Shown one piece after another: positions 3,921 to 12,714 of a stretch of 25,603 bases of DNA. This DNA is from a virus. The notes under the pieces were generated by a model. That model was not told where the DNA came from and did no database searches. It saw nothing but the letters and a program-made list of their open reading frames with translations. Each line of letters starts with the position of its first letter. Within the stretch, counting starts at the first letter, position 1. Location of the stretch: positions 1 to 25,603 of the IMG/VR virus record IMGVR_UViG_3300008259_000224; one strand, 5' to 3'. The position numbers and the translations under genes are program-made.

Positions 3921-4198
3921 AAATATTTGGACCTTACAAGGGCAGTAAACAAAATGGTGGTCGTCCAATCTACGTTATTAAACGTAAGAAAAAAGATGGC
4001 TCTACTGAAACTACATCTACCAATAAAGCACGTCTTGATTACAAGAAGGCTACTGGCAAGAAGTTAAAACGCAACCAAGAAGTAGACCATATTGATAACA
4101 AAGGTCGTAAGGGCAACGATAAAATATCCAACCTACGAGTTCTATCTAAGAAAAAGAACGTAGGCTTAGAGAATAAGAGACGAGCCAAAAAGAAATGA
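3917..4198 (+). CDS. HNH endonuclease
   Basis: This short, very basic protein (93 residues from this start) has a compact HNH motif: V-D-H-I-D at 56-60, N67-D, N72-L-R-V-L-S and N81. The D-H...N...N layout is that of single-domain phage HNH enzymes that nick or cut DNA. The N-terminal half is Lys-rich and may bind DNA. I prefer the ATG at 3917, which overlaps the upstream stop as ATGA and sits 10 bases after GAGGAG. An in-frame ATG at 3908 lies only one base after that ribosome-binding site. It may be a free-standing homing-type nuclease or a general phage nuclease. Confidence 0.8.
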   Translation: MKIFGPYKGSKQNGGRPIYVIKRKKKDGSTETTSTNKARLDYKKATGKKLKRNQEVDHIDNKGRKGNDKISNLRVLSKKKNVGLENKRRAKKK

Positions 4199-4935
4199 AA
4201 ACTATTGTTTGCATATCAGACCTCCAAGTACCGTACCACGATGCAGAAGCCGTGAAAGCAATTGCTAAGTTTATCAAGGCATACCAACCTGACACCGTAG
4301 TATCTTGCGGAGATGAAATGGATATGCAGACTATTAGTAAATGGAGTAAGGGCACCGAGTTAGAGTTTGAGCGTTCTATTGGACGTGACAGAGACACTAC
4401 TCGTCAAGTTCTTTATGACTTAACTATTGAGCATATGATTCGCAGTAATCATACAGATAGATTATTTAATACAGTTGCAATGAGGGCACCAGGATTACTT
4501 GGCTTACCTGAGTTGCAATTAGAAAATTTCTTAGGGCTTGATGAGTTAGAGATTAAATATCACAAAGACCCTTATGAACTGGCTCCCGGTTGGTTGTTAA
4601 TGCATGGTGATGAAGGCAACGTACAACCTACTGCTGGTGCTACCGCACTTGGATTAGCAAAGCGTTCAGGCATGTCTGTAGTGTGTGGACACACGCATCG
4701 TATGGGCTTGACACATCATACTCAAACATATCGTGGCGGTAAGCCTAAGACTATATGGGGTATGGAACTGGGCAATTTAATGAACTATGCTAGTGCTAAA
4801 TATATTAAGGCTGGATTGTTTACGTGGCAACAAGGTTTTGGTATTTTGCATGTTGATGGCAAAACTGTTGTGCCTCAATTAGTACCTATCGTAAATAGGT
4901 CTTTTACTGTGGAAGGCAAGACTTGGAAATGGTAA
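4195..4935 (+). CDS. Calcineurin-like metallophosphoesterase
   Basis: The 246-residue protein shows the five metallophosphoesterase signatures. They are I-S-D-L-Q-V-P-Y-H-D at 7-16 (Asp9; Gln replaces the usual His of D-x-H), G-D-E-M-D at 39-43, S-N-H-T-D-R at 84-89, M-H-G-D-E at 136-140 and G-H-T-H-R at 165-169. Members hydrolyse phosphomonoesters or diesters with two metals; phage versions are thought to act on nucleotides or DNA ends. The substrate cannot be read from the sequence. It overlaps the HNH gene by ATGA and the sigma-like gene by TAATG. Confidence 0.85.
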   Translation: MKTIVCISDLQVPYHDAEAVKAIAKFIKAYQPDTVVSCGDEMDMQTISKWSKGTELEFERSIGRDRDTTRQVLYDLTIEHMIRSNHTDRLFNTVAMRAPGLLGLPELQLENFLGLDELEIKYHKDPYELAPGWLLMHGDEGNVQPTAGATALGLAKRSGMSVVCGHTHRMGLTHHTQTYRGGKPKTIWGMELGNLMNYASAKYIKAGLFTWQQGFGILHVDGKTVVPQLVPIVNRSFTVEGKTWKW

Positions 4936-5648
4936 TGGACTGGACTAGCATTGAGAAGTGGGATTACATTGTAATTGCTGTTGCCTCTGAGTATCATAAA
5001 AAATATTCAATGGTTGAACTCGATGACATAAAGCAATCCCTATATCAATGGTTTGTAGAACATCCTAATAAATTAAAAGAGTGGGAAGCCATAGGCGAAA
5101 AAGATGCTAAGAATCTTATCTATCGTTCACTTCGTAATGATGCATTAGATTATTGTCAGAAGTGGAAAGCCAAATCATTAGGTTATGAAGCGTCAGATTC
5201 GTTTTTCTATGAGCCTGAAATTGTTGAGGCTTTACTGCCTGGTGTGCTTCGTGGTGAGTTTGGTGTGTCTCATAAGTTAAATCTTGCTGGTCCTTCAAGA
5301 CCTCCAGCACCTGCCGAAGGCGGCAACTTAATGATTATGATGATTGAAATAGATAAGGCGTACAATAAACTCAGCACAGAGGATAGAACTGTACTGTTTT
5401 ATAAGTACGCCGAATCTATGGAGTATGGCGAAATCGCTACAGAGATGAGTATAAGTAGCGAGGATGCTGTTCGCATGCGCCATAATCGTGCTATCAAGAA
5501 ACTCATAACTAGAATCGGTGGATTCCGACCTTGGTTAGACAGAGATTCTGGAGATGAAATATCCGAGCAGCCAGACGAGATTGTAGAAAGCGACAAGCCC
5601 GAAGATAAAGATGAACGGAACGAGGACAGCGATACTGAAAGTGAATAG
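4935..5648 (+). CDS. Sigma-70-like RNA polymerase factor (region 2/4 layout)
   Basis: The layout is that of a small ECF-like sigma factor. A helical front (about residues 25-80, with D-D-I-K-Q-S-L-Y-Q-W-F and R-S-L-R-N-D-A-L-D-Y-C-Q-K-W-K) resembles region 2. A Pro-rich hinge lies near 118-128. A region-4-like helix-turn-helix follows at about 143-195 (L-S-T-E-D-R-T-V-L ... Y-G-E-I-A-T-E-M-S-I-S-S-E-D-A-V-R-M-R-H-N-R-A). The last 45 residues are strongly acidic. Region 4 is convincing and region 2 is weaker. The start could be ATG 4935 (TAATG overlap), ATG 4929 or TTG 4923. As the last gene of the plus-strand early arm it could direct RNA polymerase to the repeated minus-strand promoter-like palindromes; that link is inferred. 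Confidence 0.7.
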   Translation: MDWTSIEKWDYIVIAVASEYHKKYSMVELDDIKQSLYQWFVEHPNKLKEWEAIGEKDAKNLIYRSLRNDALDYCQKWKAKSLGYEASDSFFYEPEIVEALLPGVLRGEFGVSHKLNLAGPSRPPAPAEGGNLMIMMIEIDKAYNKLSTEDRTVLFYKYAESMEYGEIATEMSISSEDAVRMRHNRAIKKLITRIGGFRPWLDRDSGDEISEQPDEIVESDKPEDKDERNEDSDTESE

Positions 5649-6650: not shown

Positions 6651-7004
6651 TCACCGCCTTATTCGTTGCCCTAGTTTATTTCTTAAAGCATATGCCTTGG
6701 TGACCGCTTCACCACTACTAGTTCTTGGAGTGATTCCAACCATCTCTAATCTTTCATATGGCATAGTTCCTCCCCATATTCCGAAAGGTAGATTACCCCA
6801 AGCAACCACCTTCCCCCGCATGGTCTCGGTTTTCATACCTTCAGCCAAGCACTCTGCTTTGACAGGGCACGAGGCACATAATTGTAGCGCATAGTTGGTC
6901 TGTTTAGTAAGTACCTCCAAGGCACGAGCACCTATGGTATTTCTAGGCAGTTCAGGAAACCACCAATCAGGGTTAGCGTCGCCAGTACAGTTGCCATTAA
7001 TCAT
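6651..7004 (-). CDS. whiB-like: WhiB-family transcription regulator
   Basis: The 117-residue product has the four conserved cysteines of WhiB proteins: Cys6, then Cys43-x2-Cys46-x5-Cys52. They hold a [4Fe-4S] cluster. The G-I-W-G-G turn is at 75-79, followed by a basic C-terminal tail that contacts DNA. WhiB proteins are confined to Actinobacteria and their phages and regulate transcription by binding sigma-factor region 4. This is the strongest host clue in the window. The start ATG overlaps the stop of the upstream acidic small gene (ATGA). It may work with the phage sigma-like factor or the host primary sigma factor; the sequence does not decide which. Confidence 0.9.
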   Translation of the reverse strand: MINGNCTGDANPDWWFPELPRNTIGARALEVLTKQTNYALQLCASCPVKAECLAEGMKTETMRGKVVAWGNLPFGIWGGTMPYERLEMVGITPRTSSGEAVTKAYALRNKLGQRIRR

Positions 7005-7523: not shown

Positions 7524-7741
7524 TTTATCCCCGCTTCGTCTAGTCGCTTTATTACTGTTATGGCAGTTGTATCATAACTTTCAGCACCTTCACCATCAGC
7601 ACCTTCAAGCCATAGTATTCTATTCTTGTAGCGTATTGTAGAGCCATTACCATATAGGCTCATTAGTAATGCAGCAGCAGCATAATCATACACATCTGCC
7701 ATCACATCACCTCTTGGGTCATGCACTTTTACTTTTTTCAT
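7520..7741 (-). CDS. 73-residue protein, first gene after a palindromic promoter site
   Basis: The 73-residue product begins M-K-K-V-K-V-H-D-P-R-G-D and ends with an E-S-Y-D-T-T-A-I-T-V-I-K-R-L-D-E-A helix. The residues between suggest a small alpha/beta protein. The ATG has AAAGGA six bases upstream and the palindrome at 7757-7769 directly before that, so this gene probably opens the transcript that runs on through WhiB to the nuclease at 5654. No family recognised. Confidence 0.65.
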   Translation of the reverse strand: MKKVKVHDPRGDVMADVYDYAAAALLMSLYGNGSTIRYKNRILWLEGADGEGAESYDTTAITVIKRLDEAGIK

Positions 7742-7756
7742 ATCTATCCTTTTCTG

Positions 7757-7769
7757 CTGTATTATACAG
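7757..7769 (-). promoter_or_regulatory. Palindrome site 1 (TATAAT-centred)
   Basis: This is CTGTATTATACAG on the plus strand, flanked by G and CG. On the minus strand it reads CTG-TATAAT-ACAG. A start about seven bases after the TATAAT would give a short leader that still includes the AAAGGA of the 7741 gene. It also contains the stop codon of the upstream small gene (7762). Confidence 0.65.
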
Positions 7770-7905
7770 CGTATAGTTTTTGTAGTAGTAGTCTTGCATT
7801 AGCAATTATAGCGTCATCTCTTTCGTCAGTCAAATTGGCGATAGAGATTAACTCTATAATTACTTTTCTGACTTCTTCCCTAGAAGCCAAAGTCATACTG
7901 TCCAT
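7762..7905 (-). CDS. Small helical protein after the amidotransferase
   Basis: From the preferred ATG at 7905 this encodes 47 residues with a single amphipathic helical region (R-E-E-V-R-K-V-I-I-E-L-I and A-I-I-A-N-A-R-L-L-L-Q-K-L). The frame is open further upstream to an ATG at 7983, but that would overlap the glutamine amidotransferase end by about 100 bases. The ATG at 7905 has GGGAG six bases upstream, and one at 7908 is also possible. The TAA stop lies inside the palindrome at 7757-7769. No family recognised. Confidence 0.5.
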   Translation of the reverse strand: MDSMTLASREEVRKVIIELISIANLTDERDDAIIANARLLLQKLYAV

Positions 7906-8716
7906 CATATGCTCCCGTCGTTTGTTTGTGTTGGTCGGAAGTCCACCTATCTCGCTCAGGTGTCCAGCATAGGCAACCATCATTTACTACCATGGCACAT
8001 TCATAGCAACCGCCACACTCGAAGCAGTAGTATGGATTACCATCACTCATCTCACCGCAGATATAACATATGGCTTGTTCGTCATCCTCTAAACCAGCAC
8101 CGCAAGCGGTAGGGTCATCAGTAGTACCCCAGTTCCAGTATTTGCCATAGTAGGTTGACTTGTATGAATCATTAGACCACCAGTTGCCATGATTGTCCCA
8201 AGAGCCTAAGTCTTCGTTGACAATATAGCAGTCATACTCGGCATTAGGGTCAAGCGTGAAGATAGCAATCTTGCTACCGACAGACCACTTTTCTATCATG
8301 CCGTATAGATTTGGATTATCTAATGCAGTAATACCACCCATTGACGGCAGGATATCCTCAGCAAAGATACGGGTATCGCTACGCTTGTCAGTAGGCTCGA
8401 TATGTACATCTAGAATACCATTGTGTGCAAGATATGTAAGGTCGCTACCACCCACCTTGAATGGATGACAATTCTCCTCATTCTTAACACCATGCGTAGC
8501 AAATCTAGCATGATACATAGCATAACTATTTGGGTATTGCTTGCGTACCGCTAAGAATTCTTTGATTACCTTCTTGGCGGACATACCCTTGCCAGTAATA
8601 ATTTTATTGCCAGCAATTACGGCATAGCCAAAGCCATGCGGATTATTACAAGAAGCATTATCTAAATCCTTCTTGCGTGGTGTGCTATTCGGGGAACTTA
8701 CTACTAATAGACACAT
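7880..8716 (-). CDS. Class II glutamine amidotransferase with Cys-rich C-terminal domain
   Basis: The 278-residue protein starts Met-Cys, so removal of Met would expose Cys as the N-terminal nucleophile of class II (Ntn) amidotransferases. Supporting motifs are N-N-P-H-G-F-G-Y-A at 24-32, Y-H-A-R-F-A-T-H-G at 68-76 (Arg contacts glutamine), C-H-P-F at 83-86 and L-A-H-N-G at 96-100. It would release ammonia from glutamine for transfer by a partner. A second part (about 215-250) has eight cysteines in C-x2-C pairs, a zinc ribbon-like knot not usual in this family. It overlaps the amidoligase gene by 32 bases, which strongly suggests that the amidoligase is the partner. Ribosome-binding site AGAGG precedes the ATG. 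Confidence 0.85.
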   Translation of the reverse strand: MCLLVVSSPNSTPRKKDLDNASCNNPHGFGYAVIAGNKIITGKGMSAKKVIKEFLAVRKQYPNSYAMYHARFATHGVKNEENCHPFKVGGSDLTYLAHNGILDVHIEPTDKRSDTRIFAEDILPSMGGITALDNPNLYGMIEKWSVGSKIAIFTLDPNAEYDCYIVNEDLGSWDNHGNWWSNDSYKSTYYGKYWNWGTTDDPTACGAGLEDDEQAICYICGEMSDGNPYYCFECGGCYECAMVVNDGCLCWTPERDRWTSDQHKQTTGAYDGQYDFGF

Positions 8717-9908
8717 TCTCTTTCCTCTCTATCCTAGATATCACGCTAGATAATCTATCTAGTCGTGCATTGAGGGCAGGATACAATTCGTTCCTGTCTC
8801 GGATGTATTGTATCAGGTTGATACAATCTAACTTATGATTACGAATCTCAGGTACACTCATCACCCGAGTGAACTCAACGCTGGCATGCGCTAAGTCAAT
8901 ACATGCTTTGATATAGTTTTGATTCAGACTACCTCTAAAGATTCGCATCTCTAAAGTATTTCTATTGTTAGTATTGACCGCAGAGTATCTATCGCTACCA
9001 TGTCGGTCAAACTTATGCTTAAAGGATTTCTGACCAGTATTAGGGTCAACATTGTCATCAAACTTAGCCCAATGACTAGATGACCTACCTGCCATAACCT
9101 CATAGAAGTCCTTGTTATTGTAGACTAATTGCAAGAATCTATGTTGATGTGAACCACCACTAAATCCATTACGAGAGATATGGATATGCAAACCGCAGGT
9201 CTGAGTACCCCAAGCCATCATGTCATAATCGGATTTAAGTTTGGTAATGGTGTCCCATAAAGTCCCAGCGTCATTCATAAAATAACTATGGGATAATGGG
9301 TGCGTTACTATCTCAAAGCCACACGCAAGAGAGCCGTCGGATTTAAGGTAGGCTAGATTCTCACTTTCTAATATGATACTAGCATACTCAGCAGATATTC
9401 TACGCTGGGTATAGTTTTGATTTCGGACTTCTGTCTCAACTTCTATACCAAAGTATAGTCGTGTCTGTTCGTCCTCGGAACTATGGAAGATAGGGTCAGG
9501 TCGATACGAATAATCATGTATCACCCTACCATCTGCCTCATCATCATGGTTGTACTCGCAACCATTTACATAGGTAGCATCACAATCCTCACAGTAAGTG
9601 GTGTTATTCTCATAACATCTCTCACACATGCAATCGCTAGTATCATCTGCACCATAGGTATAACCTGTGAAATAGTTTTCACACATGTCGCACCAATGAG
9701 CACTATCTGAGGTGCAACTTTGACACCATGTATCACCTTCTACATCATTGAACTCATCATTGGTAGATAATATATCATCACAGCGACGGCATATCACTAC
9801 GCAATCGTTGCAGACCATAACATCATAACGAGTTTTGATTACATCATCTAACTCAGAGGTGCAGACAGTACATTTGTACTTAATCTCTACCTCATCAACA
9901 GTATCCAT
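8685..9908 (-). CDS. Cys-rich amidoligase (COOH-NH2 ligase, PF12224-like)
   Basis: The 407-residue protein has two halves. Residues 10-120 contain about eight C-x2-C-type pairs or near pairs (Cys13/16, 33/36, 40/43, 62/65, 73/76, 93/95/98, 106/109, 117), a chain of zinc ribbons. Residues 150-330 show the putative amidoligase signatures: F-G-I-E-V-E-T-E at 153-160, K-S-D-G-S-L at 189-194, F-E-I-V-T-H-P at 198-204, C-G-L-H-I-H-I-S at 238-245 and T-L-E-M-R-I-F-R-G at 318-326. These belong to the glutamine-synthetase/GCS-fold ligases that join an amine to a carboxylate using ATP. The downstream amidotransferase could supply ammonia. Substrate unknown; a host or phage protein bound by the zinc ribbons is one possibility. 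The ATG has AAGGAA five bases upstream and the palindrome at 9920 just before. Confidence 0.82.
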   Translation of the reverse strand: MDTVDEVEIKYKCTVCTSELDDVIKTRYDVMVCNDCVVICRRCDDILSTNDEFNDVEGDTWCQSCTSDSAHWCDMCENYFTGYTYGADDTSDCMCERCYENNTTYCEDCDATYVNGCEYNHDDEADGRVIHDYSYRPDPIFHSSEDEQTRLYFGIEVETEVRNQNYTQRRISAEYASIILESENLAYLKSDGSLACGFEIVTHPLSHSYFMNDAGTLWDTITKLKSDYDMMAWGTQTCGLHIHISRNGFSGGSHQHRFLQLVYNNKDFYEVMAGRSSSHWAKFDDNVDPNTGQKSFKHKFDRHGSDRYSAVNTNNRNTLEMRIFRGSLNQNYIKACIDLAHASVEFTRVMSVPEIRNHKLDCINLIQYIRDRNELYPALNARLDRLSSVISRIERKENVSISSKFPE

Positions 9909-9919
9909 GCTATTCCTTA

Positions 9920-9932
9920 CTGTATAATACAG
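9920..9932 (-). promoter_or_regulatory. Palindrome site 2 (TATTAT-centred)
   Basis: This is CTGTATAATACAG on the plus strand, so the minus strand has TATTAT in the centre; it is the only one of six sites with the other central base. Its edge is 11 bases before the amidoligase ATG. If it is a -10 element the transcript would be nearly leaderless, starting at or inside the AAGGAA. Confidence 0.6.
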
Positions 9933-9963
9933 CGAAAGTATCTCTCTCGCTGGTGATACTATT

Positions 9964-10197
9964 TTAGACTAATTCCTTAGCCTTGTCAATCCTACGCTGA
10001 ACACTATCGAGAATAACATTCACGATTTTATCACGCAGGTCATCAGCATACTTAGCACGAGCCGTAAAGCCCTGCCTTGTATTATTTATGGAGAATTGCC
10101 TAAGAGATTCCCTTACTGTTTCTAGTTCATCTCTAGAAAGAGTAAGGATAATCTCATTGGCATAATCTACATTGTTAGCGGACACGCTTTTTGCCAT
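9964..10197 (-). CDS. 77-residue helical basic protein, unknown
   Basis: The 77-residue product looks all-helical with charged repeats (L-S-R-D-E-L-E-T-V-R-E-S-L-R-Q-F and R-A-K-Y-A-D-D-L-R-D-K-I-V-N-V-I-L-D). It resembles small DNA-binding or anti-restriction-type proteins in composition only. The ATG lies inside the end of the upstream 40-residue gene. No family recognised. Confidence 0.6.
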   Translation of the reverse strand: MAKSVSANNVDYANEIILTLSRDELETVRESLRQFSINNTRQGFTARAKYADDLRDKIVNVILDSVQRRIDKAKELV

Positions 10198-10316: not shown

Positions 10317-10445
10317 TTACTTAACACTTAACTCACGCAAGGCACGAGTTAATTTAGCATTTCTAATCGCAGTAGTAATTACCAGCGTGGTGCTAGTAGT
10401 TAATGCGATAATAATTGCTATCGTATCTGTTATTTCTATGTACAT
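10317..10445 (-). CDS. 42-residue single-pass membrane protein
   Basis: The product has one hydrophobic stretch (I-A-I-I-I-A-L-T-T-S-T-T-L-V-I-T-T-A-I, about residues 9-27) followed by a basic tail (R-N-A-K-L-T-R-A-L-R). This is the profile of a small inner-membrane protein with the tail in the cytoplasm. AAGGAG lies four to five bases before the ATG, and the palindrome at 10471 sits just upstream, so it is likely the first gene of its transcript. It could be a superinfection or lysis-related protein; no evidence decides. Confidence 0.6.
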   Translation of the reverse strand: MYIEITDTIAIIIALTTSTTLVITTAIRNAKLTRALRELSVK

Positions 10446-10470: not shown

Positions 10471-10483
10471 CTGTATTATACAG
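10471..10483 (-). promoter_or_regulatory. Palindrome site 3 (TATAAT-centred)
   Basis: CTGTATTATACAG on the plus strand reads TATAAT on the minus strand. It lies between the cruciform element and the strong AAGGAG of the 10445 membrane-protein gene. The spacing allows a leader of about 20 bases. No TTGACA-like -35 element is seen 17 bases upstream. Confidence 0.65.
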
Positions 10484-10921: not shown

Positions 10922-10948
10922 TTTGCTACCTTCCATTTATCTAGCCTG

Positions 10949-10961
10949 CTGTATTATACAG
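10949..10961 (-). promoter_or_regulatory. Palindrome site 4 (TATAAT-centred)
   Basis: CTGTATTATACAG in a GC...CG context, TATAAT on the minus strand. It lies about 27 bases downstream of the predicted start of the 10994-11022 promoter, so it could be a second promoter or an operator blocking the first. The 10921 gene with its GGAAGG follows. Confidence 0.65.
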
Positions 10962-11037: not shown

Positions 11038-11050
11038 CTGTATTATACAG
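11038..11050 (-). promoter_or_regulatory. Palindrome site 5 (TATAAT-centred)
   Basis: CTGTATTATACAG in a GC...CG context, just upstream of the 10994-11022 promoter. No ribosome-binding site or gene follows directly; the next gene on this strand starts at 10921. This suggests regulation of the neighbouring promoter rather than, or as well as, its own transcript. Confidence 0.6.
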
Positions 11051-11239: not shown

Positions 11240-11902
11240 TTACTTGCTTGCTTTTACTGGCGCTTCGGTCTTGCTGTTTTGGTAGATGGTGTAAAGAATA
11301 CCAATTACCTCATTTAGTTTTTGAGGCTCTGCGGTTTTCTTGTCTTTTAGATTGCCACATGCTTTCAGATAATCTCGAAGATTATCCACTACTGCTTCCA
11401 GTGTGATGTTTTTAGCAAGTGTTTTAGTGTCGGTCTTTACCTTGTTTCCAGCATCCCGATTTTGGCTCTCTTTTTTAGTAAGAATTTTCTCGTCGAGTTC
11501 GGCAAAAGTTTTGCAACCAGCGATTGCAGATTTTACGCCTGATGCTTTTACATCATAAAGAGTTCGAACGGCTAGGCTCAAAATCTCGCTAGTTTTTAGC
11601 GTTGCAAGTTCAGCCTCGAACTTTTGCATGATTAAACATGCGGTTGGAATTGCTGGAACATGATTTGGCAAAACTATTGGGCGAATGTTCACATCTTTTA
11701 ACAACGCCTTCATGCTCGCTTCTGCTTCTTTTTGGGTAGTTCCGTTTTGCATCTCATTACCAACCACAAAAAGAAACTTTTGGTTCATTTGGTTATTTGA
11801 TTTTCCAAAATCAATTACATTTTGGTAATCATTTTGTATTACTAGATTTTGCTTTACTGCTTCGGTCTTTTTTGTATCTTTTGCTTTTTTGGCTTTAGCC
11901 AT
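11240..11902 (-). CDS. Lys-rich protein of unknown function
   Basis: The 220-residue protein has a very basic front (M-A-K-A-K-K-A-K-D-T-K-K-T) and a mostly helical remainder (for example F-A-E-L-D-E-K-I-L-T-K-K-E-S and L-E-A-V-V-D-N-L-R-D-Y-L-K-A-C-G), with one further Lys-rich stretch near the end. No domain recognised. Start ATG 11902 is preferred because AGGTGG lies eight bases upstream; a GTG at 11914 sits inside that site. It stands alone, with its own leader hairpin, a palindrome site upstream and a strong terminator, so it is probably expressed separately and perhaps heavily. Nucleic-acid binding is plausible from composition only. Confidence 0.75.
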   Translation of the reverse strand: MAKAKKAKDTKKTEAVKQNLVIQNDYQNVIDFGKSNNQMNQKFLFVVGNEMQNGTTQKEAEASMKALLKDVNIRPIVLPNHVPAIPTACLIMQKFEAELATLKTSEILSLAVRTLYDVKASGVKSAIAGCKTFAELDEKILTKKESQNRDAGNKVKTDTKTLAKNITLEAVVDNLRDYLKACGNLKDKKTAEPQKLNEVIGILYTIYQNSKTEAPVKASK

Positions 11903-11927
11903 TTTCTTTACCACCTTTTTTATCGGA

Positions 11928-12031: not shown

Positions 12032-12044
12032 CTGTATTATACAG
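12032..12044 (-). promoter_or_regulatory. Palindrome site 6 (TATAAT-centred)
   Basis: CTGTATTATACAG with A before and CG after on the plus strand; TATAAT on the minus strand. It lies about 130 bases upstream of the Lys-rich gene, giving a long leader that contains the 11928-11947 hairpin. This is the rightmost copy found. Confidence 0.6.
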
Positions 12045-12230
12045 CGGGCTTTAAGCGGGTTTGTGTTGGTGGCATAGATTTAGCAGCCACCCAAAAAAGA
12101 AGCTCTTTTTATAGGGGTTTTTGGCATGTTTTTATTTATGGCTTATTCCACCGATTTATTCTTTATTCATTTATTTATTCATGAGCCAATTATTCCAGAT
12201 AGGCAAATCAAATCTTATTAAGTATTTATT

Positions 12231-12252
12231 CATGCGGTTATCCATGCGGTTA
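12231..12252. repeat. Direct repeat CATGCGGTTA, two copies 12 bases apart
   Basis: CATGCGGTTA occurs at 12231-12240 and 12243-12252, the first preceded by TTATT. Short ATTTATT-type stretches repeat just upstream (12160-12230). This could be part of an iteron-like origin. Confidence 0.45.
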
Positions 12253-12410
12253 AGTCTTACCGATTGGGTTAGGTGTAATCGCTTAACAATTATTTATTTA
12301 TTAATAGCCCGTAGAAAATCCTTTATTAGTAGCCCCGTTAAATATCTATGGGAGATAGTAAACCGCTAACAATTAGCCAATATCAATTAGACGGCAACGA
12401 ATAGTCTAAA

Positions 12411-12616
12411 GGGGGGGAACAAAACGACAGTTTTGAGGGGGGGTTTATTAATTCCGAAGGAATCTACTACTATAGTATCCCATAAAAAATTACTGTTATA
12501 TAATATAGGGGGGTATATATACGCTCAGAATGAGCGTGATTATCACCTATCTGTTCGCTTTTACCTGTTTGAACAGGTTATCTATAGTATATATATAATA
12601 TACGGAGTCGCTCCGT
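12411..12616. repeat. Cluster of five perfect short hairpins and three G-runs
   Basis: Hairpins with tiny loops: CAAAAC/GTTTTG (12420-12435), ATTCC/GGAAT (12451-12463, loop GAA), ACGCTCA/TGAGCGT (12521-12537, loop GAA), ACCTGTT/AACAGGT (12563-12578, loop TG) and ACGGAG/CTCCGT (12602-12616, loop TCG). G-runs of 6-7 lie at 12411-12417, 12437-12443 and 12508-12513. Five different perfect hairpins within about 200 bases is unlikely by chance. Confidence 0.65.
12569..12599 (+). promoter_or_regulatory. Possible late promoter overlapping an operator-like palindrome
   Basis: TTGAAC (12569-12574) and TATAAT (12594-12599) are 19 bases apart; an alternative TATATA at 12592-12597 gives 17. The TTGAAC lies within the 16-base palindrome ACCTGTTTGAACAGGT, so a dimeric repressor could block it. 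Transcription would run right toward the terminase, with the 12602-12616 hairpin at its very start. Confidence 0.4.
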
Positions 12617-12678
12617 TTAAGACTCCGCTCCTCCTATAGTATTATTAATAATTTATAATTATAATGGGGATAGTCTGC

Positions 12679-12714
12679 CCGTTTATAGGGACCGTTAAAT
12701 AACCGTTTATAGGG
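12679..12714. repeat. Direct repeat CCGTTTATAGGG, two copies 24 bases apart
   Basis: The 12-base unit is at 12679-12690 and 12703-12714, with a related ACCGTTAAATA between them. The second copy supplies the AGGGGG ribosome-binding site of the terminase gene. Possible terminase or regulator binding site. Confidence 0.5.

Follow-up and report, generated by a model that had tools for sequence, protein, structure and literature searches.

An overlapping amidoligase and glutamine amidotransferase gene pair in a probable actinobacterial phage, and palindromes that co-vary with a candidate regulator

The stretch of viral DNA considered here, which we call the window, comprises 25,603 nucleotides of the IMG/VR record IMGVR_UViG_3300008259_000224. 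On its minus strand lie two genes, for an amidoligase and for a class II glutamine amidotransferase, that overlap by 32 nt; both open reading frames are present where the original prediction had put them (Table 1). A small ORF overlaps the 3′ end of the amidotransferase gene, and its real start possibly lies further in. Elsewhere in the window, the gene set includes WhiB-like and sigma-region-4 proteins, of kinds also known from isolated Nanopelagicales phages. Nucleotide matches among phage records were confined to two records, both named ct2KA10, one of which (OX376641) is taken to be phage F5 of ‘Ca. Planktophila’ (PMC10202952). Over the 19.7 kb of F5 that were compared, the helicase, sigma factor, WhiB and terminase genes are syntenic with the window. 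Because of the WhiB and sigma proteins and these gene matches to F5, the host is probably a freshwater Nanopelagicales actinobacterium. In that 19.7-kb stretch nothing in F5 matches the ligase, the amidotransferase or the family of the Lys-rich protein encoded upstream of them, and no perfect palindrome is repeated. Since F5 shares the flanking genes without a ligase or amidotransferase match, the operon is apparently dispensable in the wider group. Ahead of the window’s terminase gene, the region 12100–12700 is AT-rich and gene-poor, with G runs and short repeats.

Table 1. Features of the window at and around the ligase–amidotransferase locus
Feature	Coordinates	Strand	Basis or remarks
Metallophosphoesterase	4195–4935	+	
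Sigma-region-4 protein	4923–5648	+	
WhiB-like protein	6651–7004	−	
Palindrome copy	7757–7769		15 nt before gene at 7741
Small ORF, probable third gene of transcript	7762–7983	−	Conserved in relatives
Class II glutamine amidotransferase, 278 aa	7880–8716	−	Motifs, fold model
Eight-Cys tail of amidotransferase, residues 217–250	7967–8068	−	Invariant columns
Amidoligase PF12224, 407 aa	8685–9908	−	Cys-rich N-terminal module and glutamine-synthetase-fold domain
Glutamine-synthetase-fold ligase domain, residues 147–407	8688–9470	−	Z 12.8 to YbdK 1r8g
Cys-rich region of ligase, residues 13–117, seven CxxC pairs and C117	9558–9872	−	LIM-like (model), presumed zinc-binding
Palindrome CTGTATAATACAG, putative operator	9920–9932		Between ligase promoter and start codon
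Promoter-like TTGACA-17-TAAAAT before ligase	9961–9989	−	Sequence match
Palindrome copy	10471–10483		25 nt before gene at 10445
Palindrome copy	10949–10961		12 nt before gene at 10936
Palindrome copy	11038–11050		Next gene start about 100 nt downstream
224-aa Lys-rich protein, candidate palindrome-recognizing regulator	11240–11914	−	Covariation
Palindrome copy	12032–12044		About 118 nt upstream of 11240–11914 gene start

The ligase is a member of PF12224 with a predicted glutamine-synthetase-type fold. It scores 33 bits against the Pfam profile Amidoligase_2, for which the cut-off is 22, and its structure model (pLDDT 85.9) resembles YbdK 1r8g with an rmsd of 4.0 over 224 residues, while glutamine synthetases reach Z values of about 12; in structure comparison, residues 147–407 of the model also match glutamate-cysteine ligase and GmaS. 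Foldseek likewise placed GmaS and YbdK as the best matches, with PafA and Dop also among the matches. The ligase domain contains the motifs FGIEVE, GLHIHIS and RYSAVN...TLEMRIF, and in an alignment of 43 relatives E156, E158, H241, H243, R307, E320 and R322 are invariant. Searching solved structures with a profile of the ligase brought up nothing significant. Its front had been described as carrying about eight Cys pairs, which is close: there are seven CxxC pairs and C117. Among the same 43 relatives, the cysteines at positions 13, 16, 33, 36, 40, 43, 62, 65, 73, 95, 98, 106 and 109 are invariant, C117 is conserved in at least 90%, and position 76 is Cys or His in 97% (86% Cys, 11% His). Foldseek found weak LIM-domain matches for this front (FHL2 at E 0.0086, LMO2 and LMO4; E 0.0086 to 0.2), and by sequence it fits the LIM spacing CxxC-x16-CxxC-x3-CxxC-x18-CxxC loosely. 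The module presumably binds zinc.

By its motifs and fold model, the product of the partner gene is a glutamine amidotransferase of class II. Its catalytic set is complete: a Cys directly after the initiator Met, followed by RFATHG, NCHPF, HNG and RSDT. We take these motifs, like those of the ligase, to correspond to known active sites, of GlmS and glutamine synthetase, respectively. The scores against GATase_4 (22.1 bits, cut-off 23) and GATase_6 (22.4 bits, cut-off 27) lie just under the Pfam cut-offs, and a profile search of solved structures returned weak matches only, the best at E 0.0067. The structure model (pLDDT 72.1) matches the folds of GlmS, GFAT, EgtC and PurF; in it, residues 185–215 and most of 240–278 fall under pLDDT 50, and the tail is mostly below 60. 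Across 39 aligned sequences C2, R71, T74, H75, G76, H84, N99, G100 and D114 are invariant, as are the eight cysteines of the tail (C217, 220, 231, 234, 237, 240, 248 and 250). The identities given to both proteins by the original prediction thus hold, as does the eight-Cys tail, and structure predictions of the single proteins gave the expected folds; the catalytic residues have not been lost in close relatives, where they are invariant or nearly so.

Nor do the two genes occur apart in close relatives. Scans of viral contigs yielded 24 ligase relatives and 136 amidotransferase relatives, of which 80 were kept, and a profile scan yielded 207 ligase relatives, of which 80 were kept; these sets overlap, several contigs appearing under two or three different locus ids, and the counted loci include the window itself. 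In the first two scan rounds, in which some contigs are counted twice, the amidotransferase accompanies the ligase in each of the 104 loci that match the latter, and the sole locus without a ligase begins 29 bases before the amidotransferase gene. The later profile scans found both genes in 78 of 81 loci, and the other three end within 86 bases of the ligase. There were 77 distinct protein pairs, 36 of which overlap by the same 32 nt. With this many distinct pairs, and with both genes in 104/104 loci that have room for them, the pairing is not due to chance. A Podoviridae isolate has the pair too, and the two genes are adjacent in Marvin, MEP402, ctgrD200 and a contig from human faeces. The last of these (L112, 4161–6163), in which a ligase bearing Cys pairs adjoins the amidotransferase, carries an Lgt-like gene and is perhaps bacterial rather than phage; a scan of genome contigs gave a single match, in a bacterial bin. 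In Clostridioides phage AR1086-1 the ligase is not directly followed by an amidotransferase. Across more distant phages, then, the pairing is common but not universal.

A point missed by the original prediction is that the pair had already been described in other phages, namely Marvin, phages of OM43, LUZ24-like phages and Rhizobium phages. In Marvin and related Mycobacterium phages, gp105 and gp106 are likewise adjacent, with about 29% (ligase) and 38% (amidotransferase) identity. Marvin gp106 has nearly the same eight-Cys tail with near-identical Cys spacing, and gp105 also carries Cys pairs at its front, but fewer of them, and has a longer C-terminus than the ligase of the window; the Marvin pair differs in position as well, being located toward the right-hand end of the 65-kb genome. 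The OM43 (Methylophilales) phages MEP401 and MEP402 have an adjacent PF12224 ligase and amidotransferase (PMC10580990), although in MEP402 the amidotransferase is without the Cys tail and the N-terminus of the ligase is long and differently built. UFV-P2, a LUZ24-like phage, is listed with the pair together with ATP-grasp, COOH-NH2 ligase and AIG2/GGCT genes (PMC3890496); its amidoligase and class II amidotransferase lie in one block as here, but the accessory genes are extra. A block in Rhizobium phage N3_13 likewise combines ligase and amidotransferase with an ATP-grasp gene, the last being a difference from the window, and the Rhizobium proteins have neither the Cys pairs nor the Cys tail. 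Among 51 predicted proteins of one relative, covering about 40.0 of its 40.8 kb (the window itself being a fragment), we found no Pfam match to ATP-grasp, COOH-NH2 ligase or AIG2/GGCT cyclotransferase. What differs here is the Cys-rich modules and, judged from this one 40-kb relative, the absence of accessory ligase genes.

The palindrome ahead of the ligase is one of six exact sites of the 13-mer CTGTATNATACAG in the window, four of which lie 11–25 nt before an ATG. The original prediction erred in describing the palindrome site as the operon’s own, as it recurs before other leftward genes; with six copies in the window, a palindrome dedicated to the ligase operon is ruled out. Most relatives have a palindrome at the same place before the ligase, with a sequence that differs between phages. 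In 59 loci scored by the first of two palindrome-picking methods there are 31 distinct palindrome words, and a locus’s own word usually recurs several times within it, while the words of other loci are near zero. These first-method counts are unbiased, although the method failed or chose a non-recurring word in about twenty loci; the second method takes the palindrome within 75 nt that has the highest recurrence in the locus, a choice that rewards recurrence and biases its copy numbers. In 43 of 50 loci the palindrome is preceded, at a distance of 19–36 nt, by a TTGACA-like promoter that matches at 9 or more of 12 positions, the order being promoter, palindrome, start; matches at 10 or more of 12 positions occur in 86% of loci as against 2% of controls shuffled by mononucleotide.

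The window’s palindrome contains TATAAT, and we considered whether such palindromes are −10 boxes. As a general rule this reading was rejected, because TATAAT is often missing, many other phages’ palindromes being without it, and because separate TTGACA promoters lie upstream at the distance just given. An RNA hairpin is less likely, as the sequences of some variants would place C-A mismatches in the sense strand, and odd-centred sites occur in both orientations within the window, which would further weaken that reading. Some palindromes lie elsewhere with respect to the pair. In some relatives (L004, about 7087; L014, about 6385) a copy falls within the 3′-terminal part of the ligase gene, a short way ahead of the point where the amidotransferase begins. 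The window itself carries another palindrome-like sequence at the corresponding place, TTGTATCAGGTTGATACAA, at about 8811–8829. Where the genes do not overlap, in L067 (5642) and L092 (5969), the amidotransferase has its own palindrome 14–18 nt before its start.

It is informative to compare the palindromes with the Lys-rich protein encoded upstream of the ligase, which has no match in Pfam, PHROG or PDB. Homologous proteins in relatives are 200–225 residues long, and nearly all loci with enough flank have an ORF of 185–250 residues located 0.9–2.3 kb upstream of the ligase, these limits of length and distance having been chosen after inspection of the loci. The test took the 49 loci in which such an ORF occurs just once and the palindrome recurs. 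In these, the distance between the proteins is correlated with palindrome distance at a Mantel r of 0.77, none of 5000 permutations being as high. The test was not blind, as the covariation had first been spotted in a table of the window’s genes, in which identity to this protein fell with palindrome difference. The corresponding r is 0.52 for ligase distance and 0.47 for amidotransferase distance. In partial Mantel tests, the correlation of palindrome with Lys-rich protein is 0.69 when the ligase is allowed for, and that of palindrome with ligase is 0.23 when the Lys-rich protein is allowed for. Among 25 close relatives, with the 15% cut-off for ‘same palindrome’ and the ligase-identity limit of 0.6 each a single choice, identity of the Lys-rich protein averages 72% where the palindrome is the same and 24% (at most 50%) where it differs, compared with 78% and 72% for the ligase. 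Profile comparison joins the proteins of five palindrome classes into one family (E 1e-31 to 3e-5, probability 72.6–99.9%; under 1% for a control alignment). A contig scan with the window’s protein found only two contigs, and one with the protein of another palindrome class found 22, mostly already in the set.

Based on the covariation with the palindrome and the position of its gene, we infer that the Lys-rich protein is likely the cognate regulator of the palindromes, although linkage with shared recombination could contribute to the covariation. Several genome-specific sites co-varying with one protein is a trait of multi-operator immunity repressors, and it is seen here; no integrase is among the families listed for one relative. 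In the cluster A mycobacteriophages, each genome has many stoperators, and the sites and the repressor diverge together, with specific recognition (PMC6550527). The likeness lies in the multiple sites that co-diverge with a protein. However, stoperators are asymmetric and mostly away from promoters, whereas the sites here are palindromic and often between promoter and start codon, and the candidate regulator matches nothing in the libraries searched.

As to what the operon does, we think it fairly probable, from the motifs and fold models, that the pair is a glutamine-dependent, ATP-driven, amide-forming enzyme of two proteins in a freshwater actinobacterial phage. The operon would begin with the TTGACA/TAAAAT promoter, followed by the palindrome and the start codon, and would be one of the leftward genes probably controlled by the Lys-rich protein through binding at the palindromes. 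The amidotransferase would split glutamine, or a gamma-glutamyl amide, by means of its N-terminal cysteine; the ligase would use ATP to turn a carboxylate into an acyl phosphate, to which it would join either an amine or the ammonia released and passed on by its partner. The Cys-rich modules of both proteins probably bind zinc, and may serve to dock the two proteins onto each other or to hold the substrate. That they form the interface between ligase and amidotransferase is just as likely as that they are target-picking zinc knots.

The main rival to amidation is gamma-glutamyl transfer, in which the ligase would couple glutamate to an amine or amino acid, and the amidotransferase-like protein would hydrolyze or transfer the resulting gamma-glutamyl amide, protecting and releasing a group or carrying an amine. 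Its models by analogy would be EgtA and EgtC of ergothioneine synthesis, or GmaS together with the subunit of N-methylglutamate synthase that resembles an amidotransferase. That the best Foldseek matches of the ligase are GmaS and YbdK and that EgtC is among those of the amidotransferase speaks for it, as do the catalytic residues, which are common to glutaminases and gamma-glutamyl hydrolases. We nonetheless hold it unlikely: the third enzyme of such a pathway is not apparent in the neighborhood, and the partner in other phages is annotated as a glutamine amidotransferase, though by similarity only. A catalytically dead zinc scaffold would explain why cysteines are among the most conserved positions, but it is scarcely credible, as across 39–43 diverse relatives the catalytic motifs of the two enzymes vary little or not at all.

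Other alternatives concern the target rather than the chemistry. For the OM43 phage pair, suggestions of roles in the cell wall and in secondary metabolites are cited from earlier work in PMC10580990. The same paper reports, citing Iyer 2009, a suggestion that such operons of other phages modify the envelope of the host cell and prevent superinfection. The window’s pair might be a reduced form of such an operon with the same effect; the enzyme classes are the same and the genes are placed in the leftward block. Against this, the ATP-grasp, COOH-NH2 ligase and cyclotransferase of UFV-P2 were not found in the one 40-kb relative, and a target of protein or nucleic acid would go with the Cys-rich modules no less well, so that we regard this role as distinctly unlikely. 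The role put forward in the original prediction, in host takeover or anti-defence, gained no support of any kind as such. Protein modification to that end, with the Cys-rich modules choosing the target, would accord with the common use of LIM-like modules to bind proteins and with the presence among the ligase matches of PafA and Dop, whose targets are protein side chains; however, the pair is found in phages of very different hosts, and also in the faecal contig with its bacterial-looking neighbor gene, and we give this reading a slimmer chance still.

To return to amide formation as the favored chemistry, phages whose hosts are unrelated carry the pair with its active sites intact, and the literature consulted names no substrate, nor did we find there a measured activity for members with this architecture. 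The small two-protein version, for which accessory genes were not found in one relative, is a good candidate for finding that substrate. We would advance a broader proposal tentatively and with more doubt than conviction: that the Lys-rich protein is the first member of a new family of DNA-binding regulators, which change their specificity in step with palindromes of 12–18 bp located between promoter and start codon of leftward genes, and that its targets include the ligase–amidotransferase pair, the product of which would be a new amide on some protein or nucleic acid recognized by the LIM-like modules. No description of the covariation of palindrome and protein was found in the literature consulted on it, and it offers a testable system of regulatory specificity. 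The phages concerned infect what are probably very abundant freshwater bacteria and, if the proposal is true, closely related freshwater actinobacterial phages would differ in the specificity of their control.
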